Assembly (NCBI GenBank): GCA_949126835.1
Contig: OX421494.1
Coordinates: 56,486,358-56,550,357, forward strand
DNA: 64,000 nt
Source of the DNA: Anisus vortex
Lineage: Eukaryota > Mollusca > Gastropoda > Planorbidae
Direction: 5' to 3'
Shown: positions 6,137-52,167 of the stretch, in pieces
How the letters are laid out: every line of letters begins with the position of its first letter
Position numbering within the stretch: the first letter of the stretch is position 1
Program-made: the position numbers and the translations under genes
Notes under the pieces: generated by a model
The model's input: only the letters and a program-made list of their open reading frames with translations
The model's database searches: none
Told to the model about the DNA's origin: nothing

Positions 6137-6556
6137 TAGGATAGGGATATATTTGGTGTTTTTTGTGTTATTTCTTATAAAATATGGTAAGAATTACTTT
6201 ATATTTTGTGTTTTTTTCCCTCTTTTTTTTGTATGGTTCTAAGTACTTAGGAATTTTGACTGAAGCTTGGTCTGAATAGCCATTTAATTTTAATTCTAAA
6301 GTCTAAAGGGACCTTGGTCTGAATAGCTACAGTTTTTGTTTTTTTTATTGCATGGCCTTTAATGCTGTACTTGCATAAAGGGCAATATTTGTGTATGGAG
6401 TTTATCAGGACTTGCTTAGGCTAACTAAGCCTTAGCTAATATTCATAAACTTCGATAGTGACAATGTTCAGATAGGCTAGGCCTAGATAGCAGGTCTAGT
6501 TGTTTTTATGGTTATTTACCTACACTTGAATACACTTGTTATCTTATAGGCCTACA

Positions 6557-7401
6557 TTAATAATAATAATAATAGTGCTTGTATACCGCATATATCCCAT
6601 TGATGACAGTTCTAAGTTCTATGCGCTGACGACAACTACAGAGTACAGACAACGAGCAACAGACGAAAATGTATATATGTACACGTGATTACTGCTACTG
6701 ACTATACCGGAATAGGTGAGTCTTCAGTCAGCTCCTGAAGGTGTAAAAAAAAAAGGGCTCTGGCAAAGCTGTAGTGTGTAGTGGCAGTTGATTCCAGGCG
6801 GACGGCCCCGCGTAGGAGAATGCCCTTGGACAGGGGACACTAGCCTCGCACAAGGGATACGAAGAGTCAGCATGCCAGAAGCCGAGCAAAGTGGATGGGA
6901 TTGGGTGTAGAGCTCACTCTATACAGGAGCGAAGGTAATTCGAGGTAGAGTCATTCAGGCACTTGTAGCAGAGAGAAGCCAGCTGATATGAGATCCGGTT
7001 GTTGATGGGTAGCCAGTGCAGAGATCGGAGCAGAAGAGTGATATTATCTGACTTCTTCTTCTTGAGGACTAGTCGGGCAGAACAGTTCTGGATATGTTGG
7101 AGGCCCTGAAGGGAGGAGGCCGAGAGACCAGCCAAGAGCGAATTGCAATAATCCAATAATGAATAAGATAAGAGAGAGAAGACACGCTTCACACAAGCTT
7201 TCTGGTGAGATAGCGATGGATGGCGGCAACAGGCTCAATAGGATGCAGATGGAAGAAGCAGATTTTGGTGAGGAAGGAGATTTGGTACTGCATGGACAGG
7301 GTGGAGTCCAGATAGACGCCAAGGCTCTTGACAGTTGGGGAGAAAGCACAGTCACTCCTTATAAGCCTTATATAAAGAAGATGATTGCCTCTTACGCTCA
7401 T
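6557..7401 (-). pseudogene. L2/CR1-like LINE reverse transcriptase C-terminus, broken
   Basis: On the reverse strand two frames carry consecutive parts of a non-LTR RT C-terminus: LGVYLDSTLSM (near 7320), then LLDYCNSLLAGL, LRSLHWLPINNRISYQLASL and CLNDSTSNYLRS (7192-6914). At least one frameshift separates them. The downstream 3' UTR ends in an (ATT)n tail at 6557-6573. These blocks are the standard thumb/C-terminal signature of CR1/L2-clade LINEs. The 5' end is truncated and endonuclease and RT core are absent, so this is a dead copy. A sister copy lies at 14994-15473 on the opposite strand. Confidence 0.88.
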
Positions 7402-8370
7402 CCGTGGCCGAGTCTAACCTTGCATTTTTTTTAGGCTACGGCTAATGACAGTAATGTTTATTTTTATTTTTTTAAGAGTTTAGTTAGGCCTACTCATTAT
7501 TGGCATATTGGGAATATGTTAATTATAATATTATGTAAATAAAATAGGCCTACTCTTAAAAATAAAAGTCAAAGGCGACACAGTCACTCACACACACACA
7601 AACACTGCTGGTCACAGGCATGTTTCGCTACTCAGTCTACTAGTCATATCATGTGCTGACGGTGACGCCACTGACCGTAGGCAGCGAAAGAAAACCGTTA
7701 TCAGCGCGAAATGGATCTAATCTGTCATTGTTTTTAACGATCGGAGGGGACAGCATGTATTCCTAAATTGGTATCCACGTAAGAGGTTTTCAGATTATAA
7801 ACTTACCCAATAAAATAAAAGTTTAGGCAGCCGACAGATTTGTATACTACTTGTAATTTCACGGTCACATGCCATAATAAGGTTTGTTAGTTGTGTTTTA
7901 AATAAACCGACATGTTGAAATATTGCCAGATTTCCTTAAATAGGTATTACAAAGAAAATAATTAAACATTTAAAACCAACCACAAAGAACAATAGTCGCT
8001 TTTTTTAGTTAATTTATGTTGTTAATCACAAAATAATAAGTTAAAATAAAATAGATCTATATAGATTCTATATTCACTTTAAATGCATTGATGGTTGGTG
8101 TAGTAATTGCTATTTTTTTTAATTTAAACAATTAGCATGATTTTTTTTTTAAGAAATACTTTTAATTGACTTGATTTTTACTAAAATAAGTGTGTCAAAT
8201 ATTTGGCAAAGTTTTAATAAAAGTAGCGTTCGGATCATTCGGAGTCTTGGTACATTTTCAAAATGTCAATCCCTTGAGATGAAAAAAAGTTACTTAATAG
8301 TCAATTTGGCATGGCATGATCTTGTGTGCACTGAACTATTTATAGCCTATATAGGCCTATATATATTGTG
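7402..8370. other. Unassigned AT-rich sequence
   Basis: Contains several TAGGCCTA motifs and a short (CA)n run near 7590. No coding or TIR structure is recognised. Confidence 0.45.
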
Positions 8371-8510
8371 GGTTGGCGTTACCAAAGATCTTGGGTTCGA
8401 ATCCTGGTAAAGGCTATGATTTTTTCCCGGTATGAAGGTGTTCTTGAGTCTATTTATTTGAGGAAAAGTAAAGACGGTTGACATTGTGCTGACCACAAAC
8501 CTAGATCTAA
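8371..8510 (+). mobile_element. SINE-A (tRNA-derived), partial
   Basis: Contains the B-box-like GGGTTCGAATCCTGGTAAAG, then a T-run and CCCGGTATGAAGG, and ends near TGTGCTGACCACA. These are the shared landmarks of the SINE-A family, seen also near 26863, 35338, 43722, 51962, 55278 and 62280. The 5' part is degenerate. Confidence 0.7.
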
Positions 8511-8942
8511 TATGTCCACATCTTTTTTCCAATCTGAAGATATCAACAATATTTCTTGTTGCTTAGGCAAATTATCAGTCGAGAACTTACTTAGGCTACA
8601 ATTATTATTTTTATAGAAATATTTAAATTTTCGGTTATATTTTCATTTTTAATGAAATCATGGGATCTGTAGGCCCCACAGAATAGATATAGAACAGAAT
8701 GCGCTATATTTATTCTGTGGTAGGCCCTACCTAGCACCTCATGCATCTATTGAAAAGTTCAGGCGTTATTTAGAATGGTCTCTGCATAACAAATCCTAAC
8801 ATTTTATCAAAATATAAATTTAAAATTAGTTTCTATTAAATATTTATATAAAATGAAAATATGTCGTATGATGATTTTGCCCTTTAAACTACTATAGGCC
8901 TATACCACCCACCAGTAATGAAGAATCACAAAAGCGCGGTTA
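8511..8942. other. Unassigned AT-rich sequence
   Basis: Nothing recognised apart from one TAGGCCTA and degenerate forms of it. Confidence 0.45.
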
Positions 8943-10313
8943 GGCACTGTCCATAAAGTACGTACGTCACGCTATTTTTTACCAGTTTTAATCCCCTCCC
9001 CCCTCTCTCTGTCACAAACTGTCACAAATCTCGGACCCCCCCCCTCCCCTAAAGTACGCGCGTCACACTTTCGAAATCTTTAAAAAAAATTAACACCTAT
9101 TTAAAATTCAATCTAAAACGCACTTCACTATTAAACAGTAGTCGAGTCTATTAAAATATAAAATTTTCACTTAAAACTTTCAATGTTTTTAATAGTAGAA
9201 TAGTTAATTGTCAACAGTTGTCACAGTTATTCATTGAAGCAGTAACTCAATCTATATTGAATTTGAAAACAAAAATTGCAAAAATTAGACATCATGTATC
9301 TGCTGCTTTTTCATTTAGGTCTACAAATAGGTGAGGTCAAGTTTTAGATAATCTTTCGATTATGCAATCCTTCTTTTTACACAGGATAAGAAGTAGATTA
9401 GCGAAACTTGACATCACCAGTGATTAAATAATAAATAGGAAACTAAAAAAAATTACTAAAACAAAGACAGGATTGACAACTTATGTGACAAGCTCTTGTG
9501 CTATATTGAATCTGTTTATTATGGGTCTGTGATTTAGCCTATGTTTAATTTTAAAAAAAATCACTGGACATCATCCATCCATGGTGAAGTAAAGCGTTCA
9601 TCCATAGTTACGACTGGCATCAATCTTTCACCATCTTCCTTTCCTGGAATGATAATTGCAGACAGATCAACTTCGTCCTCATCTAGCCACTCAACATCCT
9701 CTGAATGTGCATTTTCTCTTCTGTCAATAACTGCCATGAGTTCTCTTTGCCTTCTAGCAGCGATTCTCAAAGGACGGATGCGTTTTAACTGAGTTGATTC
9801 TGGAACAGTTTGGGTTGGCATATTCTCCTTAGCCAGAGCACTATGTGTCCCTGCATATTTCTTTAACATTGTTTGTGAGGCAAAGTATAAGTGACACACT
9901 TTGCGAATTCGATCAAGTAAGCTGGTCTGCAAAGATGGACAATAAAGTTCATATGGTTGTACTTTGAAAACTCCTGTTGATCTCAACATAATGTCATCAA
10001 ATTCGAGAGTTTGTGCCACAAACAATGAAGGAAATTTACGAGAATCTGCATCTACTCTTTCTGACGCTTTGAGTCCATCAGGTGTTTGGTTGATTGGGAC
10101 TGGAGGAGGAAATAATCTCGAAGGAAAATTATTTTTAAAGCTACTAAATTCTACTAAAAATGAATAAATTAGAAATAAAATAAAAAAATAAATAAATGTG
10201 TGACGTCACACATGACCTAACCCCCCTCACCCCCCTGTCACAAACTGTCACACTTTCGTACACCCCCTCCTCCCCCCTGGAGCGTGACGTAGGCCTACTT
10301 TATGGACGGCCCC
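8943..10313. mobile_element. TIR transposon with TTA target duplication (PIF/Harbinger-like?)
   Basis: The left end GGCACTGTCCATAAAGTACG and the right end, read in reverse as GGGGCCGTCCATAAAGTAGG, are inverted repeats that continue into CGTCACGC on both sides. Both ends are flanked by TTA (8940-8942 and 10314-10316). C-rich subterminal blocks with CTGTCACAAACTGTCACA occur near both ends in opposite orientations. A 3-bp TTA TSD fits PIF/Harbinger-related elements, but no DDE transposase is visible, so the superfamily stays tentative. The element carries the reverse-strand ORF at 9561-10153. Confidence 0.8.
9561..10153 (-). CDS. Transposon-borne ORF, likely terminal exon, function unknown
   Basis: A reverse-strand frame is open from about 10165 to a stop at 9561, roughly 197 codons. 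No ATG begins the conserved-looking part; reading starts near a tract ending TTTTTAG (10154-10160 reversed) that looks like a splice acceptor, so this is probably a 3' exon. Landmarks in order: FPPPVPINQTPDG, SLFVAQTLEFDDIMLR, VFKVQPYELYCPSLQ, DRIRKVCHLYF, a basic stretch KRIRPLRIAARRQRE, then an acidic tail EDVEWLDEDEVD. No signal peptide, zinc finger or catalytic triad is seen. The frame lies inside the TIR element and probably encodes an accessory or DNA-binding transposon protein. I do not recognise the family. Confidence 0.6.
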
Positions 10314-10332
10314 TTAACACACAAAAGCAAGG

Positions 10333-12369
10333 GGGACGTCCATTAATTACGTCAACAATTTTTAGGCGATTTTCACCTCCCCCTCTCCCCCATTGCCAAC
10401 AACTATCAAACTTTCAGAGACCCCCTTCCCCCATATAATTACGTCAACAATTTATTACCCCCCCTCCCATATAACAAGTAGGCTAACAATATTTTAGTCG
10501 CTAGCTTTTATGTAGCCTATAGGCCTATAATAGATTTGAATAATAGTTAATTGTAATAAGCTTACATTTTAAAACTTGTTTAAAATATTTTTAATTGACT
10601 ATAACTCTCATAGGCGTAGCCACGAAGGGGTGAAACATGGTTCCTATAGGCCTACCACCCCCCACTCGCCCCTTCCACATTGTTTTTCCAATCCGAGTAT
10701 TTTGACAATATTTCTTTTCTTTTTGTTTACTATTGTTCTTTTCATAGAAATATGTAGGGCTAATCTTTTCTAATTTTACGTTTCACAAATGAGCTTTTGG
10801 GTACATTGTTAATTTTTAACTAGTTTAGGCTTAGGGGAAAATTGTGCACCAGTTGTAAATTAGCACTCTATTTTAACCTTTAGCCTATGTTCACTATTCT
10901 TTCTTGCACACACACATTATACACACAGTATAGGTGCCTTCCCTGTCTAGGGTTGCCAGACGTCCGGCAAAAGGAGGACAATGCCTTCCTCCGTCCGGCA
11001 GGCAAAGCTAAAAACCTAAAAAATGTCCGGCTTTTGTAGTATTTTATGTTTTGTAAGCGTACAGTAGCCTATTAAACATAGGAATAGTATTAACCTCTTA
11101 AGAATATAACTCATACACAAGTGCATGATCATTTGTACAAGAAAAAAGTGATCCGTTTTCTTACAGACTCCTATATTAGCTGTAAAGTTTATTTTTCAAA
11201 GTTACCCAAAATTAAGCAAGCTGCCTTTCAGCCTACAGTGAATTTATATGTTTTTTTTAACAAAACTGTTTCTTGTTCAGTTTACCAATACGCACTTATT
11301 GGCAGCTCTTGTAATAAAATTGTACTGAGTACGGGTTTATTACGAAACTATTGAAACTATTGATTGAAACACAATGTCCTACTTTGTCCTCCTTTTGGTC
11401 TCTCAATATCCTCCTTTTGATACCCATGTGTCTGGCAACCTTATCCTTGTCTACTACCTTTCCTACCTTACACTATTTGCCACCCACACCTTGCAATCCT
11501 GGCAACGCCACTGATACTAATACATTTTTATCTCATACAATTTGTCCAGAAAATTAGAAATAAAAAATAAAAAATTACTAAATAGATCTATGTAGCCTAA
11601 TCGATCTAATTTTAATGTTTCACCTATTATAACGTAGACAGCAACAATAGCCTATATTAGTCTATTTATCAGAATAAAGGATGTTAAAAGGAAAGGTATA
11701 TAAGGGGGCCTAAGTATTTCGGACTTCGTGGCTTCATGTGGTGGGTCACGAATTATTTTTCTGAAGGAAATATTTTAAAATACCCATGTTGGATTTATAC
11801 AATACACAATACACTTCTTTCAATGCTTTGCAATCATTAATTAACGTCTCACAGAGGGCGCCTATTGTTTTTAGTTATATTGCCAATCCCAGCTATCGCT
11901 TAGGCCTACATGGCTTACATAACGAACACCAGTCTCTGGCGCCAAATTTAGATGTACTGAACGCACTCTGCAGACAGTTTGTTGGTGTGTTTGTGTTTCT
12001 TTGTTATACCATCCACCATGTGTCGCTACAATTGATTGGTTGGTCACTTTGCCTTGCTAACAATTGCATTAGTTATTCCACCCATACGTAGGCCCTAGAT
12101 CTACAAACTAACAAGATGAACACAAAAAGTAGGCCTAGGCCTACATGTCATATGTAGTTTCCATAAAACCATGTTTGTAGATGTTTGCTATGTAAGTGGC
12201 GCAGGACAAATGTAGAATTTCGTAATACATTTTTATCATTATTTATTTCATAAAAAGTAACATTGTTGACGTCAACTTTTCTTGACCCCCCCCCTCCCCA
12301 TGTCAACAATGGTGAAACTTTTTCAGACCCCTCTCCCCCCTATTTTGTTGACGTAATTAATGGACGTCC
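10333..12369. mobile_element. TIR transposon with palindromic GGACGTCC ends
   Basis: The left end GGACGTCCATTAATTACGTC and its inverse at 12346-12369 form a TIR of at least 23 bp with no mismatch. The flanks share the direct repeat GCAAGG (10327-10332 and 12370-12375). C-rich subterminal blocks with AACTATCAAACTTTCAGAGACC-like and GTCAACAATGGTGAAACTTT-like motifs lie inside each end. No transposase is recognised. About 1.5 kb remains once the nested hAT at 10948-11443 is removed. The TSD length (6-7 bp) does not match a superfamily that I can name with confidence. Confidence 0.8.
10948..11443. mobile_element. Nested non-autonomous hAT element
   Basis: Ends TAGGGTTGCCAGAC and GTCTGGCAACCTTA are inverted. 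The flanks TCCCTGTC (10940-10947) and TCCTTGTC (11444-11451) are an 8-bp TSD with one mismatch. AAAAGGAGGACA-like motifs repeat near both ends. It sits inside the GGACGTCC element and so inserted later. No transposase ORF. Confidence 0.82.
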
Positions 12370-12489
12370 GCAAGGTATAATCATGTAGGTTTAACAAGAT
12401 TAATTTACCAAAGTGGACGATAAATTGTAGAGAAAAAAGCTTTTAAAGACTGATTTTTGTAACTTGTGGCTGGGGAATTGTTGGCGGTG

Positions 12490-13006
12490 ATATGGATCTA
12501 GGCCTATTCTTCAAGTATTAGGCCTACTTTGGTCAGCGTTTTAGTATTTCTAGGCTATATATTCTTCAAGTAGGCCTATTAGGCCTACTCTAGTCAGCGT
12601 TATAGTATTTCTATATTCTTCAAGTATTAGAAGGCCTACTCTAGTCAGCGTTATAGTATTTCTATATTCTTCAAGTATTATTAGGCCTACTCTAGTCAGC
12701 GTTATAGTATTTCTATATTCTTCAAGTATTATAAGGCCTACTCTAGTCAGCGTTATAGTATTTCTATATTCTTCAAGTATTATTAGGCCTACTCTAGTCA
12801 GCGTTATAGTATTTCTATATTCTTCAAGTATTATTAGGCCTACTCTAGTCAGCGTTATAGTATTTCTATATTCTTCAAGTATTATAAGGCCTACTCTAGT
12901 CAGCGTTATAGTATTTCTATATTCTTCAAGTATTATTAGGCCTACTCTAGTCAGCGTTATAGTATTTCTATATTCTTCAAGTATTATAAGGCCTACTCTA
13001 GTCAGC
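12490..13006. repeat. 51-bp tandem repeat, about 10 copies
   Basis: Unit landmarks are AGGCCTACTCTAGTCAGCG, TTATAGTATTTCTATATTC and TTCAAGTATTATT. Because 51 is a multiple of 3, a spurious 152-codon reverse frame with a 17-residue period runs through it. Early units differ by short insertions, including one exact GGCCTA insertion (see findings). Confidence 0.95.
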
Positions 13007-14127
13007 ATTGAGGCCCTATTTCTATTCCAAAAAGCAGTTACATGGATTAACTTATAGGCCTATAATATTATGATAATCTCGCTTGTAATAAAATAAGAAA
13101 CACGATCTTTAAGAAAGAATATAGCCTACGTCCTGGTTTTAATATTAGGCTATCTTAGAATTAGAAGCAGATTCACAGTAAAAAAAAACAACAACAGCAT
13201 AACATCAACATGTATCGACAGTGACTAGGCCTAAATCAAACCACTTAACCCAATCAGCTTCTAAACTTTTTCACTCACATCACATCATTTTCTCTCATTC
13301 CACACAGGATTTGGATTGAGAAGACCATGCGAGGCGAGCTCTATATTCATTCACGACTGCTACTGTCACAAACACACTATGCAAACACAAAACACATAGA
13401 CACACTTAAATTCACCTTTCCTTTCATTCAAAATAACATTTCATCTCCACTCTCCCACAATCCCGTACCACCAAAAATTCGACTTTCAATAAAATAGCTC
13501 ACAACAGCTGAATATTTGAAAGAATATTTTGCTCAGGGCTTAACGTTTATGTGCCACGTTTCAGATTGACAGGATGACGGGAAGCACTTCAATCAGTCTT
13601 CCGACGTATGCCAACCAGCCAGAAAAAAAAGTTAATATATTAAGGAGGGGGGATATGTCAGTGAGGTGTGTTCAAAAAGGATCTTAAAGTGTAATAAGCA
13701 TATTATAAAAAAACATTTAAAAACGCATTTTAGTGGGTTGACATGTGTGAGATGTTACTAAAGATTGATACCGGATATTTTTGTCATGTAGTAACGTATA
13801 TGTGCTCAGTGTCAGCTTGATAGGATGACTGAATATGGGTCAATTATTAATTTTTAAATGTCTGATCGCCAGAAAAAGGCCTATATATACACAGGTAGAC
13901 TATAAGTAAAGTTAATATAAAATATTTAAAATATATGTAATTGAAACTATACCCAATAAAATATGATTCCAGGTTATGATATAGCATGATATAGCCAACC
14001 ATTGTTAGGGCTAAAAAAAAATATTATTGTATTAAGACATAAATGAATACTGTATGAATGATTAATAAATAAAGGACACGTCTTAATGCTTATGGTCAAC
14101 CTAAAAGTTCATAGTGTACCAACATTT
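13007..14127. other. Unassigned sequence
   Basis: No recognisable gene or TIR. Several TAGGCCTA-type motifs are present. A (TTC)n run at its end belongs to the next element. Confidence 0.4.
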
Positions 14128-20689: not shown

Positions 20690-20966
20690 AGATTTTAGGT
20701 TACCAGTACTGGTTTTTAAGTTGTTTTTTTTTTCAGGCAACCCACTCCATGCCCGGATGCCACTCGGGAAGATATTTATGCCCCCTATATGCATTATTAT
20801 TATTTATTTATTTTTTTGCACAAGGGATAAGAAAACTGTTTTTGTTCTTATGTTTAGGCCTATCTGAGCACTATAATATGTTGTCATGCCTATTGTATTA
20901 TATTTCCAAAAGTTAGAATTTAATGCCTAATATATTATTACAACTTTACTCTTTGCTGTTCTAGCC
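20690..20966 (-). mobile_element. LINE-D 3' fragment, reverse
   Basis: Contains CCACTCCATGCCCGGATGCC, AAGGGATAAGAAAACTG and TAGAATTTAATGCCTAATAT, matching reverse copies at 43355-43650 and 49568-49885. It carries a TAGGCCTA insertion at 20844-20851 that the 49.7-kb copy lacks. Confidence 0.8.
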
Positions 20967-21227
20967 TCCGAGGGCGGGGGGAGGGTGCACAGTAAAAGGA
21001 TCGGCTAACCGTGTTGTGGCCCACCGGTCGTCCCATTGCACGGCTTCACTGTCAGTGAACGTCAATCAGCGCCTACAGCATTGACAGAGGTGATGCATTT
21101 GTGTTTAATAGGAAACAATCACAATGGACGCGTGTGTAGAGAAGGGTTGGGTAGTCAGGTCTGAGAAGAACATAGAGGTCCTTGTAGAGTTAACATATTT
21201 AAGATATTTAGTCCTATGTTTTACCAA

Positions 21228-21530
21228 AGACTATAGCCTAATAAGATGGACCGCTTGCTTTGATATTTCTGCTATTTGATAACTTGAAACTGAAACACTT
21301 AGGCCCTAGATCTAGTTTCTCAATTTCCGATCGACTTCAGTAATTCGCTATGATTTTCTCAATGGAAAATTAAGATAAAAAGCGAAAGTTGTATACAGCG
21401 GGAACCTTGAATGCAATCGTAGGAGCATAGAAGTCATTCAAGACAGCCTTATTGGTTGCGCACGGAAAAGAACATAGGCCTATAAGCTCTAAAAAAATAG
21501 AGCAAGCGGTCCATCTTATTATAGTCTTTG
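21228..21530. mobile_element. MITE 'GACCGC', copy 1
   Basis: Ends CAAAGACTATA...ATGGACCGCTTGCT and AGCAAGCGGTCCATCTTATT...AGTCTTTG are inverted. The interior (CTATGATTTTCTCAATGGAA and ACAGCCTTATTGGTTGCGC) is shared with copies at 34978, 35629 and 44837. This copy has two GGCCTA-type insertions not found in sister copies. Confidence 0.85.
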
Positions 21531-21929
21531 TTTCATGTAGCCTACTAAGTAATATTAAAAAAAAAAAAAGGGAGATAATCTAAAGGGAGATAATTAACCC
21601 GTTTTATTTGAGCTAATATTTCTAATATGCTTTTTTTCTTTTAGACTACAAAAGAATAAATGGCTAGATCTAACCATTTATAACTTAGAAATGATCAAAC
21701 TGTAAAAAATATTTGAAAAGTATGTAAATATTATAAGACTAAAGAATTAATATTTATATTTTCAAACATTACATTAAACACCCAGTTTGTATGATTACAA
21801 CGTATCTATTTCGCTTAACGATAATAGGTGCGCTTTACTGACGTGTAAATATAAAAGACATTAATTAACTTCTCAGTTAAACTGAGATAAAAATATAATT
21901 AATTTTTGCAGATTTTAGATCCGCATCTT
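21531..21929. other. Unassigned AT-rich sequence
   Basis: Nothing recognised. The right part may be the far interior of the adjacent reverse hAT copy. Confidence 0.4.
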
Positions 21930-22275: not shown

Positions 22276-23234
22276 CTGACGTTTCTTGGTTTCCTACCGT
22301 CTTCTTGTTATCACCTGGACACGGGTCAAACGAATACACACAAAATGACGACGTCACAAACACAAACTGAGACACTACAGGACAAAACATTTAGCATCCC
22401 TGAAAGCAGACCAAGCTAACAGTATGTCCATACCTAATGGTTTATTACTGTTTATATTTTAAATATTAACGAGGGGAAACGCATCTGCATCTTGATTTTT
22501 TTTTATGTTCTAAGGGCCTCACAGGATGTTAATTTTCTGCTCTGCAAGTTAGACTCGCCTAAATTAAAGGTCATAGGTCACCAACCTTAGCAATCAGACT
22601 TCAGACGACACTGATATTATTTCGCTGACACTGTTAGCTATAAGTTCCATATCATACTTTTATTTTCGACGCCTGCAAAAAGGAGCAAACGTGGTTTAAC
22701 AATTTAAAAAATAACATAGTATAACATCCATTGTGAATGACCCCCCCCCCCCCTCCACAACCCTTTAAAATTTTAATGCATGTAATATATTGGCCTACTC
22801 GAAATCACAATGTCGGTATCGAAGAAGAAGTTCAACCTAGCAAAATGTGTTCGATACAGTCCACATGCAAGCATCATGATCTGTTAAACCGTAGCAGACG
22901 TGACTGGGAATAAATACTTCAAACGGAAGTTTTTTGTTTTTTGTTTTTTTGTACGTAGCATGCAGACATGCGATTTGAGAGAGAAACAAAAAAAAAATAC
23001 CCACACAAAATATTGGGTCAAACAAGACAAGGGACATGATCCAGTTACAGTTATTGACATTGATGCAGCCAATTCCCGCCTTTTATCATGCATCATAGCA
23101 GTTTGAACTGACACTTCCGGTGTCATACAATAGTTCTTACAATCCTTAACCTTTAGCTTAGGCCTACTAAAAAAAAAAGGAATACAATACAATAACAACC
23201 TATACCAGTACTCAGATAAACATAAAGATAAAAA
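22276..23234. other. Unassigned sequence with a poly-C run
   Basis: A run of 13 C lies at 22741-22753. Overlapping short ORFs at 22837-23237 are on opposite strands in homopolymer-rich sequence and show no domain. Confidence 0.4.
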
Positions 23235-24440: not shown

Positions 24441-25681
24441 GCAACCACTGCAAGACGCTACTTAAGCTAAAGCCACACTATATTCAAGAATCAGTGATTC
24501 GCAGCGATTCAAATGTCTGTTTTCTGTTTATTTGTTTGTCTAGATCTATATTCTTTTATGTTATAGCCTATAATACTTCTATAGTCATATATATAGTCTA
24601 TATATTCTATTTATGTATACTTTATTACAGCTTCTATGCATTCTTTCCTTCCTATATTCTTAACGTCTATATTCAACATTTTACTATTCTTAACATCATT
24701 TTTCTTTAATTTCTCGGGCCCCGTTTTTCACCCTACTTGTCCTGGTTTATTTCAAGAATTCTGTTAACAAGTCAAATGCGTTCTTGATCAAGTGTGGAGT
24801 GTCTGAATTTGATGGCTGGCAGAGGGGGGGGGGGAGCTGAGGGCGGAAAAAAATAGGGGAGCGGATGGAAATCAAAGAGGGAGACAGAGAGAAGTGAGGA
24901 GTGGCGTGCTTGCAGACACAACATCTCTCACAGCCCCAGCGTCGTGAGTGGCGCCCCGAGTACACCCCACACACAGTCACACATCAGTGACAACTCTGAG
25001 GTTCACGTGGCATCGTGTTTTTATTTCTCCGAGTTTTAGAAGAGCTGCAAATCGTTTCTCACATTTGTATTTCTTCTCTCTATGTTATTGTCTTAAATTC
25101 CCAGTGAGTTTTGTTAAAGGTTAAGTGACACATTCAAATCTTATACTAAGTTTTAGTACTGCTGTAGTTATTAGACCAGCACTCGTTTGTGGATGTCGAA
25201 ATAATTGTAAATCATTATTAAAGTTATAGAGAAATGATTAAAAAAAATCAAACATTTAAACAACTTGCAGAGCCTAAACCGATGTAATATTTAAGTAATA
25301 TAAATGTAATACACACCACATATTTATATATCATATCATTGGAAAGAAAAATATTGTTTAATTGTCTTAAAATAGTAAAATTGTTGAAATAATAACAAAA
25401 ATAGCATTAAAATCGCCTGGAGAAAATTATTAGTGATATGATTTATAAGTGATCAGAGGAAAATCAATTCATGCGATGAAATAGCCATGGGTCAATGTGA
25501 TAGCCATGTGTCAATGTGATACTGAAGTGTTTTCGGTATGATGTTGTTTAGAGACTTAAGTGATAACTAGAAGTTGTGTGTGCAGGCTGTGACACTTCGT
25601 TCTGGTATTCGGTTAGTTCCTGAGAGCTGAATCGTGGTAAGTTGTGCTGGTCAGATTACCCACACACAGGGGTGTTAGTGA
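24441..25681. other. Unassigned sequence, partly GC-richer
   Basis: A poly-G run lies near 24827 and a GC-richer block at 24880-25010 contains CACGTG. It could be regulatory or an untranslated exon, but no coding sequence or splice pair supports that. Confidence 0.35.
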
Positions 25682-26330
25682 TTGTACTTAAACACAGACT
25701 GTACTTAAACACAGACTGTTCTTAAACACACACTGTACTTAAACACACACTGTACTTAAACACACACTGTACTTAAGCAAACACTGTACTTAAACACAGA
25801 CTGTACTTAAACACAGACTGTACTTAAACACAGAATGTACACATACGGCACTTAAACACAGATTTTTACTTAAAAACAGTTTAGTTGCTCTACTTAAACA
25901 CAGACTGTACTTAAACACAGACTTTACTTAAATAAAGTTTAGTTGTTGTACTTAAAGAACACTGTACTCAAACACAGACTGTCTATAAACACAAGCTTTA
26001 GGCCCTACTTAAATAAAATTCGGAGGTTATACTTAAACAAAGACTGTGTTTAAACACACAGATTGTAATAAAACACACAGATTGTGATTAAACGCAAACT
26101 TTACTTAAACACATAATTTACTTAAACACAAATGATTGGTTCTACTTATGCATTGATTATATTTAAACACGTTCAGTTACTGTATTTCAACATAGTTATC
26201 TGATTGTAGGCCTACTTAAACACTTTTCTGTGATCATAATCAAACACAGATTATGCTGATACACAGTTCAATGATTGTACTTAAACACATATTATACTTA
26301 AACACAGTAACTTTTCGATGATTGTTCTTA
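25682..26330 (+). repeat. Diverged 16-17-bp tandem array (ACTTAAACACAGACTGT)
   Basis: Dozens of units based on TACTTAAACACAGACTG. The array is nearly regular at 25690-25850 and increasingly interrupted towards the right, so it is an old, decaying minisatellite. Two units carry TA-to-TAGGCCTA-type insertions (26004 and 26207). Confidence 0.9.
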
Positions 26331-27037: not shown

Positions 27038-27096
27038 GACAGGATTACTTTACTAATTCTAATGCTTTAAATTATTAGGCCTAGCGGCCTACCTAT

Positions 27097-28791: not shown

Positions 28792-29039
28792 ATTTCGTTC
28801 TAATTGTCTTCTCTAAAGTGATTTTGAATAGCATTCATTACAGCGATGTATCAACTTAGACCACATCTAATTCAGAATTCTCTTGAGTAGTCACCCTGAG
28901 CTGAAAATTTACTTATTCTGTTCTCTCGTGATTGTTTACTAAATACATTCCTAACCACATATTATAAATCACAGAGAATTGGCATACTATAAATTAAGAT
29001 ATACAGGAAATAAACCCGGCAAGACTTGTGATTATGTAT

Positions 29040-29042
29040 AGG

Positions 29043-29114
<72 letters not shown>
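29040..29114. repeat. (TA)n microsatellite
   Basis: About 70 bp of almost perfect TA dinucleotides. Confidence 0.98.
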
Positions 29115-29118: not shown

Positions 29119-29439
29119 CACAACATGTTCGCTATAATTATACATTCATTAGTAGCCTACAGGGATGACCTTTAGGCGTAGGCTATTTTTCTCCACATTA
29201 AGCGCTCCTTAAAATGCATTGGGAATGAATCATGGAAATGCATGCCATGTAATATAAAAACATGCTGGATAAAAAAAATATATTTTCAAATTAATATATA
29301 AGGGCCTATATTAACACAAGTCAAGCTTTGAAATCCAGAACGTGTTTATTTTTAATGTAGGCCTATATATTATAGGGCCCTAGCAGGCATAGTTATAATA
29401 GCGGAATACCCAGATTTTAAGTCACTGATATATACAAAA

Positions 29440-29760: not shown

Positions 29761-31938
<2,178 letters not shown>

Positions 31939-33003: not shown

Positions 33004-33866
33004 ATTTACTATTATTTGCAAACATTTTCAAATGTTTGAGATAATGAAAAAAAAAAGGACAATTATTTAGGCAGCAAGCGATAACAACTTTTTTTTTGGG
33101 ACCCAGTCTATGATACACGCATTGCTTATATTATATGTATAGGTTAGTGTCAATGTTTACGTTGGAAATAAATCCGGGGTTAATGCCCTTGATCGAGTCG
33201 CAGACGATCAGTAGGCTAATAATAGGTCAGTATTAAATTAAACAGTAAGAAATCAACCTTTAATAATACGATAACAAATCTAAAAAAAAAAAAAAAAAAA
33301 AAGAAACACAGAATAATCCTCCTACATTTGATTTATAAATCGCCAGCTTTCAGATCACGATAATCTGCGCTAGATTTCTCAAAACCTCTTAATTTTTCGT
33401 TGGGCTAAGGCGGCTAAGGTCAAGAGTCAAGGCGAGTCATGGGTACCGGGTATTGGGGTTAAGCCAACAATGCAATAATTATTATTCAACGGCATTTAGA
33501 TTAAAATCATCGTAGGAAAGAAAATAAAAAGTCGGCCTACATTATTAAATATTTGTGTTAATGTAATAGATCTTTTTTTTAATGAGCAATAATTGTCTAA
33601 TGTCTTCTCAATCTTTTTAAACGAGCAACAGACGCTAGTCGTATCGACCTATAATGCCTATATTGGCTATATGATAAATGCCTTCTCATATTTTAATTGA
33701 TTGATTATTAGAAGTAAAATGACTGGGATGGGCTAAAGTAGGCTAAACAATTACTGCTGGACTCTCTAGGCCTATTATTTCATTTATCAAACAAAAAATC
33801 CTGGGCATAAAAATAAAGCGTCTTATACTGACCACAGTGTTTTAATAATTTGTTGCATTGTTATGT
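33004..33866. other. Unassigned AT-rich sequence
   Basis: Includes a run of about 20 A at 33283-33302. No gene or TIR is recognised. Confidence 0.4.
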
Positions 33867-33872
33867 CTATGC

Positions 33873-34823: not shown

Positions 34824-34977
34824 GGGATATTCCCTGAACCTTTTAAATTGACAGTTAACAGGATATTTTATTTTCCCGTTAAATGTGCATGCCATTGATA
34901 TCAAGTCCATTCAGTTGGGTCTTTAATATTTACTAGATCTAGGTTTAAAAAAAAATACTTATGTTCCTTGGTTTAAG

Positions 34978-35272
34978 CATAGACTATAATACACATGGAC
35001 CGCTTGCTTTAGTATTTCTGCTAGATGATGACTCTAAAGACTGCTTTTCGGAATTCCCGATTCGTATATTACTTTGCACTTCCGTATTATTGAATCGCTT
35101 TGATTTTCTCAATGAAAAATTAAAATTAAAATCGAAAGTTGTATAAAGTGAAAACATTTATGAAACAAGGAGGAGCGTAGAAGTAATTAAGACAGCCTTA
35201 TTGGTTGCGCTCGGAAAAAAAATACATATAATCTCTAAAAATAGAGCAAGCTGTCCATCTTATTATAGTCCT
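34978..35272. mobile_element. MITE 'GACCGC', copy 2
   Basis: CATAGACTATAATACACATG at the left and CCATCTTATTATAGTCCTTG at the right, flanked by the direct repeat GTTTAAG (7 bp) on both sides. The interior is collinear with copies 1 and 4. Confidence 0.85.
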
Positions 35273-35337
35273 TGGTTTAAGAATTTTTTTGAAGAGAGTT
35301 TTGATAGTCAACAAATGCTTAGTAAATTAATGTTCAC

Positions 35338-35628: not shown

Positions 35629-36452
35629 ACCATAGACTATAATAAGATTGACCGCTTGCTCTATTTTTACTTCCTGAAGTTTCTATTAACTTGTATTTTC
35701 TGTCTGTCTGCTTGGTTGCTTGGATGTTTGTTAGCAAAACTTTGCATCGATTTTTCGACCACTTCCCGTCGTCCAATGGAGCTGAAACTTGGGTCGCAGA
35801 CGTGTCCAGACTAACAATACATTCTATCAAATTTTCAGCCTCATAGCCTTTACAATAGCCACTAATACCTTCGACCAATTAATTTGCGAATCGAAGAAAA
35901 TGGAAACATGGCTGCCTCTACCGGAAGAGACGAAAGTAAATAAACTTTTCGGATATTTTTGTTTTTACGAAATAAATAGAATGAAAACTACACAATATAG
36001 CCGAAACAAAGCGAGTTATCTCTTTATGGTTTTTGCGGGCCAATGCTAGAAAAAAAAAGGATGCGCAAAATTTTAGTGTGGAAATTCACTTATATCACTT
36101 ATATTTATTTTAATCTATCAAAATATAAATTAAAAATAAACTTAGTTTACAAAGAAAGGGAGTATAATAAAAACTATGTTTTTATGGGTTAGTTTATTAT
36201 AGCTTTTATGTTCTTTTTTTCCGTGCGCATTCAATAAGGCTGTCTTAAATTACTTCTACGCACCTACACTTACAGGTTTCCGCTGTATAAAACTTTCGAT
36301 TTTAATTTTGAATTCTCTATTGAGAAAATCATAGCGATTAAATAAAACGGAAGTGTACAGCACAAAAGAGAATCGGGAATTCCGAAAAGAAGTCATTCGA
36401 GTCATCAAATAGCAGAACTATTAAAGCAAGCGGTACATCTTATTATAGTCTT
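35629..36452. mobile_element. Longer relative of MITE 'GACCGC', copy 3
   Basis: Starts CATAGACTATAATAAGATTG and ends CATCTTATTATAGTCTTTG. The right 250 bp match the MITE interior (GAGAAAATCATAGCGATTAA) but about 500 bp of unique central sequence is present. It could be a less deleted version of the parent transposon. Flanks ATAAGAC and TTTAGAC agree at 5 of 7 positions. Overlapping ORFs have no transposase motif. Confidence 0.75.
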
Positions 36453-36477
36453 TGTTTAGACTCAAACCACAGATTAG

Positions 36478-38826: not shown

Positions 38827-38904
38827 TAAACATGAAAATATAAAATAAATATATCAAAGTCAGATTATTATCAGATTAACAGACTTTTTACTTAGAAAAA
38901 TGTT

Positions 38905-39030: not shown

Positions 39031-39839
39031 TTTTAAATAATGTTACATTACGCAATAATAAAACGTAGAATTAAAAAAAAAACATCGTGGCAAAAGAATG
39101 AACTATTAAAAAGAAACGTGGATTGTATGAGTTAGGCCTACTGATTGTTTGTTTTTTAAAATTCCATTATTTATTCAAGGGACAGCACCGACATCTCATT
39201 AATGGGGACACAACCTGCGAGAAACACAAGCGCCGCCCTCATTAGTAAAGTCTTTCGTCGATATTTTATTGATTGCGTGCGTCCCTTTCTGCACCGCTTG
39301 CCTGCCATCATGTTTACTGTCATTACACACGTTAGTCGTCTGGAAATACAGAAATACATCAGGTTGTGTCTTATGGCGTAATTTTTATATGACGTTCTCG
39401 TACTGACCCTTGGGGATTATGGAATTTTCGCCCCTGGCGCGTGCATGTCGGGCACAGTATGAATGTTGCTGGGTGTGCTCAATCTAGTGCACTAATCGGT
39501 GGAATTTCGTGCCGTGGGGCAGGCGTTCCTAACGACAGGGTCATTAATCCACTGTACAAAGGGGAGTTAATTACAGGGCGTAAAGCTTCGTTGTTGTTTA
39601 CTCTCCATGCAAACGGCAGCACGTCTGCAAATCTCCACATTAATACAGTCAAGAACGCTAATGATGTTCTGGCGACCCCAGGCCATGCCATAGTTTGATT
39701 ACATTTAGACCACCAAGGCAACAAGACGTCACCGATTTAATGTTTCACAAAGGGGGAGGGGAAAAGGTCTATACAATTCATTATAAAGTGTTGGAGGGCA
39801 CAATATCTCAAAAATATATGATTATAAGTTATAAGTTAT
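39031..39839. other. Unassigned sequence
   Basis: 39420-39720 is GC-richer with overlapping ORFs of 81-85 codons on opposite strands. No domain, start context or splice site supports a gene. Confidence 0.4.
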
Positions 39840-40836: not shown

Positions 40837-40839
40837 GCT

Positions 40840-41420
40840 TCATCCATAACATTAATGATAACGTGTTTTGTTGAGGGCTACATCTATAACATTAATTATA
40901 ACATGTTTTGTAGGAGCTACATTTATAACATTAATTATAACGTGTTTTGTAGGGGGCTACATCTATAACATTAATTATAGCGTGTTTTAAAGGGAGCTAC
41001 ATCTATAACATTAAATATAGCGTGTTTTAAAGGGAACTACATTTATAACATTAATTATAGCGTGTTTTGTTGAGGGCTACATCTATAACATTAATTATAA
41101 CATGTTTTGTAGGAGCTACATCTATAATATTAGGCCTAATTATAGCGTGTTTTGTAGGGGGCTACATCTATAACATTAACATTAATTATAACGTGTTTTG
41201 TTGAGGGCTACATCTATAACATTAATTATAACATGTTTTGTAGGAGCTACATCTATAACATTAATTATAACGTGTTTTGGAGGGAGCTACATCTATAACA
41301 TTAATTATAACGTGTTTTGCAGGGGGCTACATCAAATAACATTAATTATAACGTGTTTTATAGGGAGCTACATCTATAACATTAAATATAGCGTGTTTTG
41401 GAGAGGGCTAGGCATACAAT
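40840..41420 (+). repeat. About 40-bp tandem array, about 14 units
   Basis: Unit: GGGCTACATCTATAACATTA, then ATTATAACGTGTTTTGTAG, with 1-3-bp length variants. It directly abuts the 39-bp satellite without sequence similarity. One unit (41128-41140) carries TAGGCCTA. Confidence 0.95.
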
Positions 41421-41929
41421 ATAGAATATAAGATTTGGAGTGGGGGGGGGGGGGGTCAAACATAAAGTGTTCAAAAAATGTATACGATAGTCAACAAATT
41501 CAATATCATTGGCGGTGTCTCTTTCCGCCCTTTCCAAACTCCATGTGGGCGGGCACGACTAGATCTGTTCCCTCTTCCCATGAAATTTTGTCCCCGAGAA
41601 TGTTATGTTCACTCGCCGTCTGTTCTGTTGCGCGTTCTCCTTTCTAGTTGTTTGTTTTAAATTAGAAACTGTTTGCTGACGTCAAGTGTGGACATTCCTT
41701 TGAAATACATTTTCTCATCACTGGTCCTAGTGTCTTAGCGGCATGCATTTGTGTTCTGGAGTCTCGAGTTGCCTGCAACGAGCGCTAAGTGTGATCGCAC
41801 GAGCGCAACATCGAGGATTAATTTCATCACGTTTGTTTTGTTTTTCTCATTTTATTTTCAAAGTGGAAGAGAGATGTCTAAAATTTATCTAGTAACATAC
41901 AGTAGAAACTATAAGTTTACTAAGACGCA
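41421..41929. other. Unassigned sequence
   Basis: A poly-G run (41441-41454) follows the array. Short overlapping ORFs at 41435-41660 have no domain. Confidence 0.4.
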
Positions 41930-42301
41930 TGAAAGCATACTAGATCATGTATCTTATTCTCGTGTCTGGACTTGTCAACTAAATAAAATATTAGGTTACC
42001 ATGACATGCCGAAGCAAACTTGATCATGTTACTGTTACCAATTATTGTGTCTCGACTCGTCAACTAAAGAAAACATTAGGTCACCATGATATGTCAAAGT
42101 ATACTAGTTTATACATCTTATGTCTGGGGACACATCAACTAAAGAAAACATTAGGTCACCATGATATGTCAAAGTATACTAGTTTATACATCTTATGTCT
42201 GGGGACACATCAACTAAAGAAAACATTAGGTCACCATGATATGTCAAAGTATACTAGTTTATACATCTTATGTCTGGGGACACATCAACTAAAGAAAACA
42301 T
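41930..42301 (+). repeat. 75-bp tandem array, about 5 units
   Basis: CAACTAAAGAAAACATTAGG recurs at 42061, 42136 and 42211 (75-bp steps), with a truncated unit at 42286. Two more diverged units precede these. The last three are almost identical, so expansion is recent on the right side. Confidence 0.93.
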
Positions 42302-42589
42302 AAAAAAAAATACTAGAACAACTTTTAGAAAGTCACTGTAAAGTTTATGGCATAGCTAACCACTAACAAGTTATCCTCATTAGTGAAATCACTATAACTA
42401 AAACAATTGGTGAGCTAATAAGAAGATTAAAAACTAAAGTGGTAAATTAAACACACATAATATTAACTTATGTCTAGAAATAAAACATAGAAGAAACTAA
42501 TGAGATAGTGAGTAATTCAAAAAGATTAATAAAAAAAACAACACTTTTTTGTACTATTTCACAAGCATAGACTAATTTATAAACATTTT

Positions 42590-42690
42590 CTTTTCTTTTT
42601 TTTAAGTGGCATATAGACATGGAACGGGTGACTTGATATATGAAAAGCAATAACTTTACATCACTTATAACCTTTAATCAGACTGCTAGA
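42590..42690 (+). mobile_element. Degenerate LINE-D fragment
   Basis: GACATGGAACGGGTGACTTG, then AACTTTACATCACTTATAAC, resembles the WNG-LPE region and following sequence of 23290-23370. Confidence 0.45.
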
Positions 42691-42750
42691 ACTAAAATGA
42701 AACCTCGTAATATATGTGTGTATTGCATGTTTAATAATGTTTTTATGTTG

Positions 42751-43206
42751 TTTTTGAAATTGTAGAGTTGTTTATTTACAGTTACTTTTAGTGTGGAGAG
42801 TTTTTGAAATTGTAGAGTTGTTTATTTACAGTTACTTTTAGTGTGGAGAGTTTTTGAAATTGTAGAGTTGTTTATTTACAGTTACTTTTAGTGTGGAGAG
42901 TATTTGAAATTGTAGAGTTGTTTATTTACAGTTACTTTTAGTGTGGAGAGTATTTGAAATTGTAGAGTTGTTTATTTACAGTTACTTGTAGTGCGGAGAG
43001 TATTTGAAATTGTAGAGTTGTTTATTTACAGTTACTTTTAGTGTGGAGAGTATTTGAAATTGTAGAGTTGTTTATTTACAGTTACTTGTAGTGCGGAGAG
43101 TATTTGAAATTGTAGATTTGTTTATTTACAGTTACTTTTAGAGCGGAGAGTATTTGAAATTGTAGAGTTGTTTATTTACAGTTACTTGTAGTGCGGAGAG
43201 TATTTG
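42751..43206 (+). repeat. 50-bp tandem array, about 9 units
   Basis: Unit: TTTGAAATTGTAGAGTTGTT, then TATTTACAGTTACTTTTAGT and GTGGAGAGTA. Two subtypes (TTTTAGTGTGG and TTGTAGTGCGG) alternate in the right half. Confidence 0.96.
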
Positions 43207-43354
43207 CGTAGATAGTTATTTATTATGACGTAATAACACCAATATTTTTTCTCGTAGTCTCTACCACTTGCATTTTGAAAACTTCTGGAAAATCCATTCT
43301 AGCACTTTCTGCAGCTAAAGTATAAAGAACGCAGCTAGTTTTTTTTTCTTAGCT

Positions 43355-43650
43355 GCTATAAAGCTACTTATTATTAACGTCCTTTGCTAATCCGTGGTCT
43401 GAGTCTTGCATTTTATCTGTGTTTAAATGATGTAAAGTTACTGGTTTTCCTGGTTCGTTCAGGCCGCCCATTCCATGCCCGGATGCCACCCGGGGAAAAA
43501 AGTAGGTCTACTTATGTGCATATGTTCTCGCAAAAAGGGATAAGGAAAGTGTTTTTCGTCCTTATTATCTGATCATCGTAACAGATTGTCGTTGTGTTGT
43601 ATTTCTAAATTAGAATTTAATGCCTTATGTATTATTACTACTGATCTAAA
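43355..43650 (-). mobile_element. LINE-D 3' fragment, reverse
   Basis: CCCATTCCATGCCCGGATGC, AAAGGGATAAGGAAAGTG and TAGAATTTAATGCCTTATGT are in the same order as in 49568-49885. It contains AGTAGGTCTACTTATG where the 49.7-kb copy has AGTACTCATATG. Confidence 0.8.
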
Positions 43651-43721
43651 ATATCTAAAATATCTAAAATATTGCACAATTCTCCAGACTTTCATAGAAC
43701 ATCTAAAATAGAATAGCGGAC

Positions 43722-43915
43722 ACGGCTGGCGTACCCGAAGGTCCCGAGTTCGAATCCTGGTAAAGACTAGGATTTTTTTTTCTGGGTCTGGAGGGTGTCC
43801 CTAACCTTAGCTTTGAATAGTGCTGGCCACACAACCACTTAGTATGCTGTAGCCACAGAAACTGTTGAACGCTGCTTCATCGGCCGTATCTATCAGTTTG
43901 GTCCGAATATAAAAT
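43722..43915 (+). mobile_element. SINE-A, near full length
   Basis: GGCTGGCGTACCCGAAGGTC, then GAGTTCGAATCCTGGTAAAG, a T-run, TCTGGGTCTGGAGGGTG, GTGCTGGCCACACAACC, GCCACAGAAACTG and CGCTGCTTCATCGG, ending TTTGGTCCGAA. The 5' A box is degenerate. Confidence 0.85.
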
Positions 43916-44429
43916 AGAATAGAACAATAATGAATGGCTCTATTAATAAATTGTAAAAATGATCGTAGATTTTTTAAACACAATTATTTAACAAACCATG
44001 GATCAAATGCTGAAAATGTAACAAACTATCTCCTCTCTCTCTCCGTGAATCTAAAAATAGTTCACTAACACTCCTCAGCCTTGATGTCAATGGACTTTTT
44101 CCTTCAGTTTTTTAAGTTTATTTTTTAACGAAATAATTTTCGTTCCCTGTCAGTTACACAATTGAATTTTTTTTTCTCCATCCCATTAGAAACTTGAGTA
44201 ATCGAAATTCTAATCAATATTAAATGTTTGTTGTATTCGAGTCTTGTTATCTTTACATTTTTTAACATGTTCGAGGTATCGAATATTTTTGGACTGCTGC
44301 TGTTTTGATTGATTCCTTAAAAGACAAGAGTACTTATATAGATCAGTGACATGATCGAGACCTTTTTTTACGCTGACCCCGGTTGTCTTGGTAACAAGGT
44401 GCGGCTAGGTTGTGTCGGTTGCACTGATC
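43916..44429. other. Unassigned AT-rich sequence
   Basis: No recognised feature. Confidence 0.4.
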
Positions 44430-44508
44430 TATACAAAAAATGGATAGAGCCTCCATAATAAATTTGAATGTGCAAATTAATTGAGGTTAGAAAAATAATT
44501 GACTACAC

Positions 44509-44674
44509 CAGGGGTCGGCAACCGTTTCATTATATTCTGCCAAAGTAGGATTTCTAATTCATTCAGCGTGCCAACATCCTAAATGGCAACCTGTACCGAA
44601 TTTTTATTCCGCGCGCCATTGTAAATCGGTCTGCGTGCCGAGTCTGGCAAGCGTGACGTTGGTGCTCACACCTG
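44509..44674. mobile_element. hAT-type MITE, 166 bp
   Basis: Starts CAGGGGTCGGCAACCG and ends TTGGTGCTCACACCTG. Perfect 8-bp TSD GACTACAC on both sides (44501-44508 and 44675-44682). The paralogous locus near 29505-29520 reads GATTACACAGTCTACACTAT without the element. Confidence 0.92.
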
Positions 44675-44836
44675 GACTACACTATTAAAGTATCATGTAA
44701 GCGAGTTATAGGAATAAACCACATATAGTTAGAACAATTCTATACGTTTAAGAGGAAATCTAAGTCACTTGAAATGTATAAGCTTATAGTCTACAGGTCA
44801 GTGTTTGATAACTCTAGTTTTATTGATACGTGTAAG

Positions 44837-45132
44837 CAAAGACTATAATAAGATGGACCGCTTGCTTTGATATTTCTGCTATTTTATAACTTGAAAAAAC
44901 AACTTAGGTTCAAAATTTCCGATCGCTTTTGGTCCTCTACACTTCCGGTTTAGCAAGTCGCTATGATTTTCTCAATGGAAATTTAAGATTAAAATCGAAA
45001 GTTGTGCAGTGGGAGTCTTTAGATCTAGGTACTTATAGAGTCATTTAGAACAGCGTTATTGGCTGCGCATGGAAACAACAACACTTAAGGTCTAAAAATA
45101 GAACAAGCGGTCCATCTTATTATAGTATTTGG
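44837..45132. mobile_element. MITE 'GACCGC', copy 4
   Basis: CAAAGACTATAATAAGATGG at the left and CCATCTTATTATAGTATTTG at the right. Flanks GTGTAAG and GTGAAAG are a likely 7-bp TSD, and the empty paralogue near 29665 has GTGAAAG. Confidence 0.88.
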
Positions 45133-45205
45133 TGAAAGCTTTTTCATTTTAAGCATCAAGAAAGTTTCCGGGCCCAATCCATTCTTTTTATAAATCAGTG
45201 GTCGG

Positions 45206-45555
45206 TACATGAGCAGCCCAAAGGAGGCAAAGGGCTCCTTAACGAAAATATGAAACCATGTAGGCCTATGTATGGGCCCCCGAAATGTTCATGTAACAAA
45301 GAGCTCATAGCTGTTTCTACTGCGCATGCCTAGAATTTAACCCCGTTTGTTGGAATAAATGAAAAGCTATATATAAAATTCATGCTACAATAAATATTTT
45401 GGTAACAACTATCACACTATAAAATATAAACAAAAAAAAAACTGGGAACACAGCGCTAGTAGTTGAGAAAAGAATGCACGGGTTTTGTGACGGGGGAGCG
45501 AAAGGAGGTCACGGGTTGAAATAGGTAGTGTGTAAGGAGGGTGTGAAAGAAAGGG
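45206..45555. other. Unassigned flank of the satellite
   Basis: No recognised feature. The reverse frame of the satellite simply runs into this sequence. Confidence 0.4.
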
Positions 45556-52166: not shown

Positions 52167-52167
52167 G

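Follow-up and report, generated by a model that had tools for sequence, protein, structure and literature searches.

What process has scattered the octamer TAGGCCTA through the genome of the planorbid gastropod Anisus vortex? The question was raised by a stretch of 64,000 nucleotides (assembly GCA_949126835.1, contig OX421494.1, positions 56,486,358 to 56,550,357 of the forward strand), hereafter the window. The original prediction, made from the letters of this window, was that TA sites gain GGCC together with a second TA, either as the footprint of a TA-targeting transposon with GG...CC ends or as a new kind of micro-insertion. Here, we report that the change is a gain, that it is abundant genome-wide and that it recurs at individual sites, and we propose that the resulting scars arise from the repair of breaks at TA. 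A non-exhaustive full-text search with the octamer and related phrases found no published account of TA to TAGGCCTA scars, in agreement with the statement of the original prediction that none was known.

First, the octamer is far too frequent to be explained by base composition. The window holds 38 copies of TAGGCCTA, where Markov models of order 1 to 3 expect 0.8-1.5; the order-6 expectation of 36 is circular, its 7-mers being drawn from those very sites. Outside the masked tandem arrays, 27 of the 38 copies remain in 51,758 bases against 0.81 expected. The predicted excess thus stands, although the count outside arrays is lower with the mask used here than the more than 30 first announced. 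The copies run from 6478 to 45268 (last start at 45261), and there are none in 1-6477 or in 45269-64000. In the whole assembly (863,417,759 bases in 159 contigs), we counted 220,918 copies against about 12,600 under an order-2 Markov model, a fairer yardstick than the reversed word (2,972 copies), which contains CpG. Likewise, TATAGGCCTATA occurs 7,651 times genome-wide against 18 for its reversed control. A genome sample of 20 stretches of 10 kb taken at round coordinates (L129-L148; 170,337 unmasked bases) holds 53 copies of TAGGCCTA for 2.43 expected, making it the most over-represented 8-mer after G or C runs, and it is absent, outside the mask, from six of the 20. The density in the window (0.59/kb) exceeds the genome mean (0.26/kb). 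Chance and base composition are rejected as the cause of the excess by the Markov comparisons in both window and genome, and array copying is rejected by the 27 copies that fall outside the array mask.

Some side observations concern other words and other genomes. In both window and sample, no words are more over-represented than eight-base runs of G or C, as with GGGGGGGG in the sample (116 vs 1.7). The octamer also seems to be common in some other animal sequences. In IMG/VR, where at least 120 contigs have paired motifs, a look by motif alone showed two contigs with dense TAGGCCTA clusters (L083 and L075; 7 in 7.4 kb and 8 in 7.2 kb).

The change from TA to TAGGCCTA is a gain, since plain TA is found in array units, in repeat copies and in near-identical duplicates of filled copies. 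Empty sites carry one TA and filled sites two, the TA target being duplicated around the scar. The five aligned pairs put forward by the original prediction are all present, with starts displaced by 0-15 bases (12512/12567, 41050/41129, 26273/26202, 49785/20850 and 35224/21472). In the 51-bp array of the window, a TAGGCTA gain at 12551..12557 on the + strand (TTTCTATATTC vs TTTCTAGGCTATATATTC) is empty in seven alignments to other units, and a TAGGCCTA gain at 12571..12578 is empty in three alignments and uncallable in four, with the empty form at 12512. One unit of a 40-bp array gained TAGGCCTA at 41131..41138 (five alignments empty, 28 uncallable), and a 17-bp repeat did so at 26207..26214, the empty form GATTGTACTTAAA standing at 25680 and 26273. 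Dispersed repeats behave in the same way. A copy of family B is filled at its site 2 (GTTTATCT; 20855..20862), against ten empty and three uncallable homologous alignments, and this site also enters the 43-copy comparison below. One copy of family A has a 5-bp gain giving TAGCCTA at 21234..21240 (the other three window copies are empty, as are nine alignments, with one uncallable), and it carries a TAGGCCTA gain at 21475..21482, where the copy at 35224 is empty.

We extended this comparison to 159 TAGGCCTA sites drawn from the window, from eight 3-kb loci picked for holding two motifs and from the 20 sample stretches. Homologs spanned 66 of them; at least one empty homolog was found at 7 sites and at least one filled homolog at 28, the rest being uncallable. 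For the shorter forms, an empty homolog was found at 3 of 16 spanned TAGGCTA sites and at 3 of 26 spanned TAGCCTA sites. No callable site showed a filled majority with empty exceptions, the pattern expected if the filled state were ancestral, many spanning alignments being uncallable. The array units filled at L131:8032 and 8532 have 30 and 32 empty alignments, respectively. Gains also separate very similar copies. Two duplicates on contig 1 (L123 and L124) show 21 mismatches over 1,267 aligned positions; one TA distinguishes them by GGCCTA and a second one by GGGCCTA, and there are other indels too. In L135, GCCTA is present at a TA where a 98% identical copy is empty, and L192 gained GGCCTA where L191, about 96% identical to it, has an empty TA. 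This last pair also shows a CCGGTA gain at an empty TA, giving TACCGGTA, a second palindromic tetramer between two TAs that is itself in excess (8 vs 1.1). Among 82 indels of 3-14 bp between copies diverged by at most 15%, 23 fit the form TA[...TA]; for six-base indels, 6 of 9 fit this form and 4 of 9 are GGCCTA. As gains occur both between near-identical copies and in diverged repeats, the process is both old and recent. The predicted gain of GGCC plus a second TA thus holds in arrays, old repeats and recent duplicates alike.

The products form a narrow spectrum. Between two TAs, two Gs followed by two Cs dominate, and the two 3-base forms are about equally common (TAGGCTA, 45 vs 12.0; TAGCCTA, 47 vs 13.2, pooled counts). 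The 5-base forms G3C2 and G2C3 are rare yet in excess (8 and 6 vs 0.8 each), and TAGCTA, with one G and one C, is at expectation (36 vs 36.5). The 3-base forms are mostly products of the same process rather than decayed scars. Secondary decay as their main source was rejected: in the genome sample, the 24 single-substitution neighbours of the octamer show a smaller excess (91 vs 54.8) than the 3-base forms (63 vs 18.9), and TAGGCTA and TAGCCTA have empty sites of their own. In the window alone, the neighbours are not in excess (18 vs about 17.6), whether the substitution lies in the core or in the flanking TAs. The variants that had been read as decayed versions all exist, namely TAGGCCCTA at 25999, TAGGTCTA at 43503 and TAGCCTA at 21234, but most 3-base forms are better described as products.

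Recurrence at one site is best seen in family B. The pattern formed by the left flank of its site 1 has 1,111 matches in the genome against 42 for a control. Among the 100 matches listed, all on contig 1, the TA is followed by GGCC in 35, GGC in 18, GCC in 17, GGCCC in 2 and GGCCCC in 1, and the other 27 have no clean fill, some of them being no fills at all. The mix of GGCC, GGC and GCC at this hot TA is no different from the genome-wide mix (p 0.82). Site 1 has been filled many times over, because a single inherited insertion would not yield three products at one site. We also read by hand 43 copies of the family, 4 from the window and 39 fetched. Filled copies number 7 at site 1, 5 at site 2 and 3 or 4 at a third site, and filled rows are scattered over the tree, which requires 7 changes for 7 filled rows at site 1, 5 for 5 at site 2 and 3 for 4 at site 3. 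This tree is star-like and poorly resolved, and unscorable rows (eleven for site 1, two for site 2) were left out.

The scar is symmetrical, and so are the other tetramers in excess. When all 256 tetramers between two TAs were ranked, the top z-scores, A/T-only words aside, all belonged to palindromes: GGCC (80 observed for 3.24 expected), GATC (37 for 4.16), AGCT (20 for 4.46) and CCGG (8 for 1.13). Palindromes at the top of the list are as expected from identical ends on both sides, and a transposon with inverted repeats would leave just such a pair of like ends. The frame is equally specific: among dinucleotide frames around GGCC, TA...TA has a z-score of 43 (80 for 3.24) and the next, GTGGCCAC, 8.5 (13 for 1.75). 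Mixed ends, for instance GG with GA, are about as frequent in the window as expected. In the genome sample they are moderately raised (GG/GA, 20 vs 4.8; GG/AG, 15 vs 5.7) and may be aged GGCC.

Outside arrays, TAGATCTA (37 vs 4.2) and TAAGCTTA (20 vs 4.5) are likewise in excess, with examples in the window at 8052, 21307 and 31423. We found no support for GATC and AGCT being products of the same process: with 13 spanned sites each, the sole empty call for GATC was unclean, and there was no empty call for AGCT. Moreover, GATC counts do not track those of GGCC (r -0.26), and TAGATCTA prefers C before the TA.

The scars favour certain surroundings. In 160 flanks just outside the TAs, G is enriched at position -1 (z 4.0) and T depleted (z -3.2), while all four bases, A, G, T and C, occur before the TA. 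Counts per 10 kb are overdispersed (variance/mean 3.6), and those of GGCC correlate with those of the 3-base forms (r 0.62). At three loci chosen for motif pairs (L123, L124 and L125), 19-24 scars of all three forms lie within 3 kb, and TAGGCCTA alone reaches 15 per 3 kb in L125 and 14 in L124, again as selected loci. At the other extreme, the first 100 matches listed include no TAGGCCTA from 54 to 312 kb on contig 1; three 1-kb samples of this region (L188-L190) consist of a GC-rich 21-bp satellite in which TA occurs about 94 times per kb. Such satellite blocks are either protected from scars or homogenised too fast. As a side observation, the zone of L123:650-1650 and L124 that is packed with TAGG...CCTA words adjoins an 18-bp-based tandem repeat (TGCTCCATCCACCAGTGG-like), which is maybe coding, and the duplicated copies in L123 and L124 differ by several TA-bounded indels.

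What we observed directly is that TA sites gain 6 bp or 5 bp, that they do so recurrently, with a given product mix, genome-wide abundance and recent activity; from this we infer a break, its overhangs, their joining and, one step further, an element. We propose that the scars are the repair of breaks at TA, most likely the excision footprints of a TA-targeting cut-and-paste element ending in GG...CC, a reading to which we give a probability of roughly 0.48. An enzyme acting at TA would leave two ends, each reading TAGG on the 3′ strand; filled and then joined, these would give TA-GG-CC-TA. The loss of one base at the junction would produce TAGGCTA or TAGCCTA, and the gain of a G or C there the rare 5-base forms. 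The enzyme would most likely be a transposase, that of a cut-and-paste element with GG...CC ends; this element would duplicate TA when it inserts and, on jumping out, leave its last two bases on each side. If the element is scarce and mostly moves instead of multiplying, its scars could greatly outnumber its copies.

The shape of the scar thus fits the transposon footprint suggested by the original prediction. The element itself is unconfirmed, with one weak candidate in the 288 kb scanned, and a number of results weigh against this reading. In that scan, inverted repeats starting with GG beside TA amount to 8 pairs, a count that several other dinucleotides equal or exceed. Four of the 8 were inspected: the pair in L143 extends outward past the TA, those in L124 and L128 owe most of their match to the motif, and that in L144 was kept. 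This candidate (L144:1762-5268, 3.5 kb, candidate end TAGGTACTCAAAACTG) has 14 identical inverted end bases, GGTACTCAAAACTG, which stop exactly at TA on both sides. It has no transposase-like frame among its 8 frames of at least 60 aa (longest 102 aa) and its ends were found nowhere else in the 288 kb; it is too weak to shift the odds. Recurring TAGG-led words are present, their status as element ends being unconfirmed. A genome search with DDE_3 gave 8 matches, all partial and three with stop codons, its controls having worked, and one with Transposase_1 gave none, its controls being silent too. No repeated element end appeared among the 100 listed matches to the family-B hot site, 27 of which have unclean fills. 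Transposases of PIF/Harbinger type (DDE_Tnp_4) are plentiful, with 152 matches, 150 candidates scored and many open frames, but the sole such family with readable ends has a TAA duplication. Finally, in the genome sample, the GGCC core shows more single substitutions than expected (64 vs 29) but the flanking TAs do not (27 vs 26), a core-only excess that simple ageing explains poorly. Separately, we noted that the PIF/Harbinger-type element with a TAA duplication at 1071-5222 of L195 and L196 is 99.95% identical between two chromosomes and was probably active very recently.

The main alternative is that no element is involved. Staggered TA breaks, made by a nuclease, a domesticated transposase or abortive integration, would be filled in, a template-independent polymerase would add about two Gs per 3′ end, and end joining would give TAGGCCTA. 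The searches made (288 kb for elements; DDE_3 and Transposase_1 for transposases) returned neither a confirmed matching element nor a full-length TA-type transposase match; the filler is made of G and C only, 3-5 bases long; and the 19-24 scars per 3 kb of the chosen loci L123, L124 and L125 would demand many cycles of insertion and excision. Untemplated addition, however, predicts broad lengths and unequal ends, whereas lengths of 3-4 dominate, the 1+1 form TAGCTA is at expectation, and tetramers with unlike ends are much less common than those with like ends, in the window as well as in the genome for GG/GA (20/4.8) and GG/AG (15/5.7). We therefore regard this route as possible but doubtful. 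The same doubt applies to the broader claim that it would entail, namely a new type of mutation: a genome-wide, still recent and symmetric addition of GG at TA-staggered breaks, with hot TAs and zones, that has made several hundred thousand insertions in a single animal genome with no mobile element inserted.

Copying offers another way of obtaining many scars: old insertions would have multiplied with a few source repeats, or the filled state would be ancestral and have suffered repeated 6-bp losses. Family-B site 1 is indeed filled in many copies (73 of the 100 listed of 1,111 matches are G/C fills), and by hand count 4 of 12 fetched copies sharing a TTGGG variant carry the site-1 fill. We nevertheless consider this improbable in view of the scattering of filled rows over the 43-copy tree, poorly resolved as it is, of the three product types found at one TA in genome-wide proportions, and of empty copies outnumbering filled ones wherever both are callable. 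About as improbable is a scar of target-primed reverse transcription or telomerase, in which G residues, untemplated or telomere-like, extend a nick at TA that is then sealed. TAGG|CCTA does resemble two telomere-like ends placed head to head and an open reading frame (ORF) resembling those of elements without long terminal repeats is present, but the gains in clean cases come without poly-A or longer telomeric filler, T before TA is depleted where a telomere-like primer would favour it, and G runs of three are rare. Least credible of all, and very improbable, is a protein-binding or methylation palindrome built or kept by point mutation and selection. It would account for a perfect palindrome in large excess; yet what separates aligned copies is a gain of exactly 6 bp or 5 bp that includes a copy of the TA, and not point changes, in minisatellites and diverged repeats as well, and the 3-base forms are about equally common.

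Beyond the gains described above, the window holds other copies of the octamer. The majority were recorded by word count, at 6478..6485, 6547..6554, 7485..7492, 7545..7552, 8352..8359, 8895..8902, 10290..10297, 10520..10527, 10647..10654, 11901..11908, 13055..13062, 13226..13233, 23159..23166, 27076..27083, 29358..29365, 29875..29882, 30317..30324, 30354..30361, 31314..31321, 31817..31824, 33767..33774, 39133..39140 and 45261..45268. The copy at 29039..29046 adjoins a TA microsatellite, and TAGGCCTAGGCCTA at 12130..12143 consists of two overlapping motifs (12130 and 12136). Around the 51-bp array, one copy stands at its edge (12499..12506) and another is part of a unit (12519..12526); those in the units at 12580, 12682, 12784, 12835 and 12937 (12580..12944) were copied with the unit and are not separate gains. 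The 5-base form TAGGCCCTA lies in the 17-bp array at 25999..26007, and TAGGTCTA, a filled and changed form, occupies site 1 of a family-B copy at 43503..43510.

Other features of the window were noted in passing. A family of about 300 bp that resembles miniature inverted-repeat transposable elements, with near-perfect terminal inverted repeats (TIRs; AATAAGATGGACCGCTTGCT), is found at 21207-21533, 34971-35287, 36194-36461 and 44830-45144. Large minisatellites cover 45541-47760 (27 bp), 53358-55100 (29 bp) and 59101-60649 (27 bp), the first of which holds the inverted repeat GGTCAGTGACC. One ORF is 70% identical to a protein of Bulinus truncatus and 58% to one of Plakobranchus ocellatus, and a piece resembling a long interspersed nuclear element has its closest named protein matches in Littorina saxatilis (61 and 63% identity, among 120 of 695 matches listed). 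Searches of the window in Rfam at gathering scores, of 8 of its ORFs in Pfam, and of viral and genome contigs for an exact copy of a window repeat end returned no match.

These scars matter whichever origin is correct. Should they be footprints, a cut-and-paste element that left very few copies has its jumps recorded in them, and transposon activity could be counted from scars and not from copies. If there is no element, insertions of a kind not recognised so far, defined in both site and product, are made in an animal lineage. In both cases, a scar is a directional marker for breakage of DNA at TA and can inform where and when germline breaks occur, and an indel model for this genome must include TA to TAGGCCTA gains.

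Among known systems, V(D)J-type end joining with N-nucleotide addition resembles the scars by its G/C-rich filler placed symmetrically at the junction; it differs from them in that the scar has a nearly fixed length and sequence and lies at TA. The PHIS superfamily (PIF/Harbinger, ISL2EU, Pangu, Nuwa) is close in another respect, as its TIRs often start with GG (usually GG in ISL2EU and NuwaII, AG or GG in Pangu, according to PMC4482050), and DDE_Tnp_4 transposases are many in this genome. The same paper lists TWA, AT, ANT, CWG or TNA as PHIS target duplications, whereas the duplicated bases are here TA. Membership in ISL2EU was rejected, since the target is TA and not the AT duplicated inside A|AT|T that defines it (PMC4482050). 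Membership in PIF/Harbinger was rejected as well, because TA is duplicated and any base can precede it, in place of a 3-bp TWA duplication.

Excision footprints are also a property of Tc1/mariner elements, Sleeping Beauty being a further case. Unlike the CA-type ends of Tc1, the scar dinucleotides are GG...CC, and unlike in Tc1/mariner, about 220,000 scars in one genome stand against partial Tc1-type transposase matches only, the element being unconfirmed. The scars nonetheless resemble the footprints of Tc1/mariner and pogo elements such as ZB and Passer. The likeness lies in the TA target and its duplication, which is the classic Tc1/mariner target duplication (PMC10379824) and is found with footprints of 0-4 bp for the pogo-type Passer (PMC9976928). 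It also lies in the short 3- or 4-base footprint between two TAs and in the palindromic junction. Indeed, the dominant products GGCC, GGC and GCC fall within the 2-4 bp given for Tc1/mariner excision footprints in PMC7913693.

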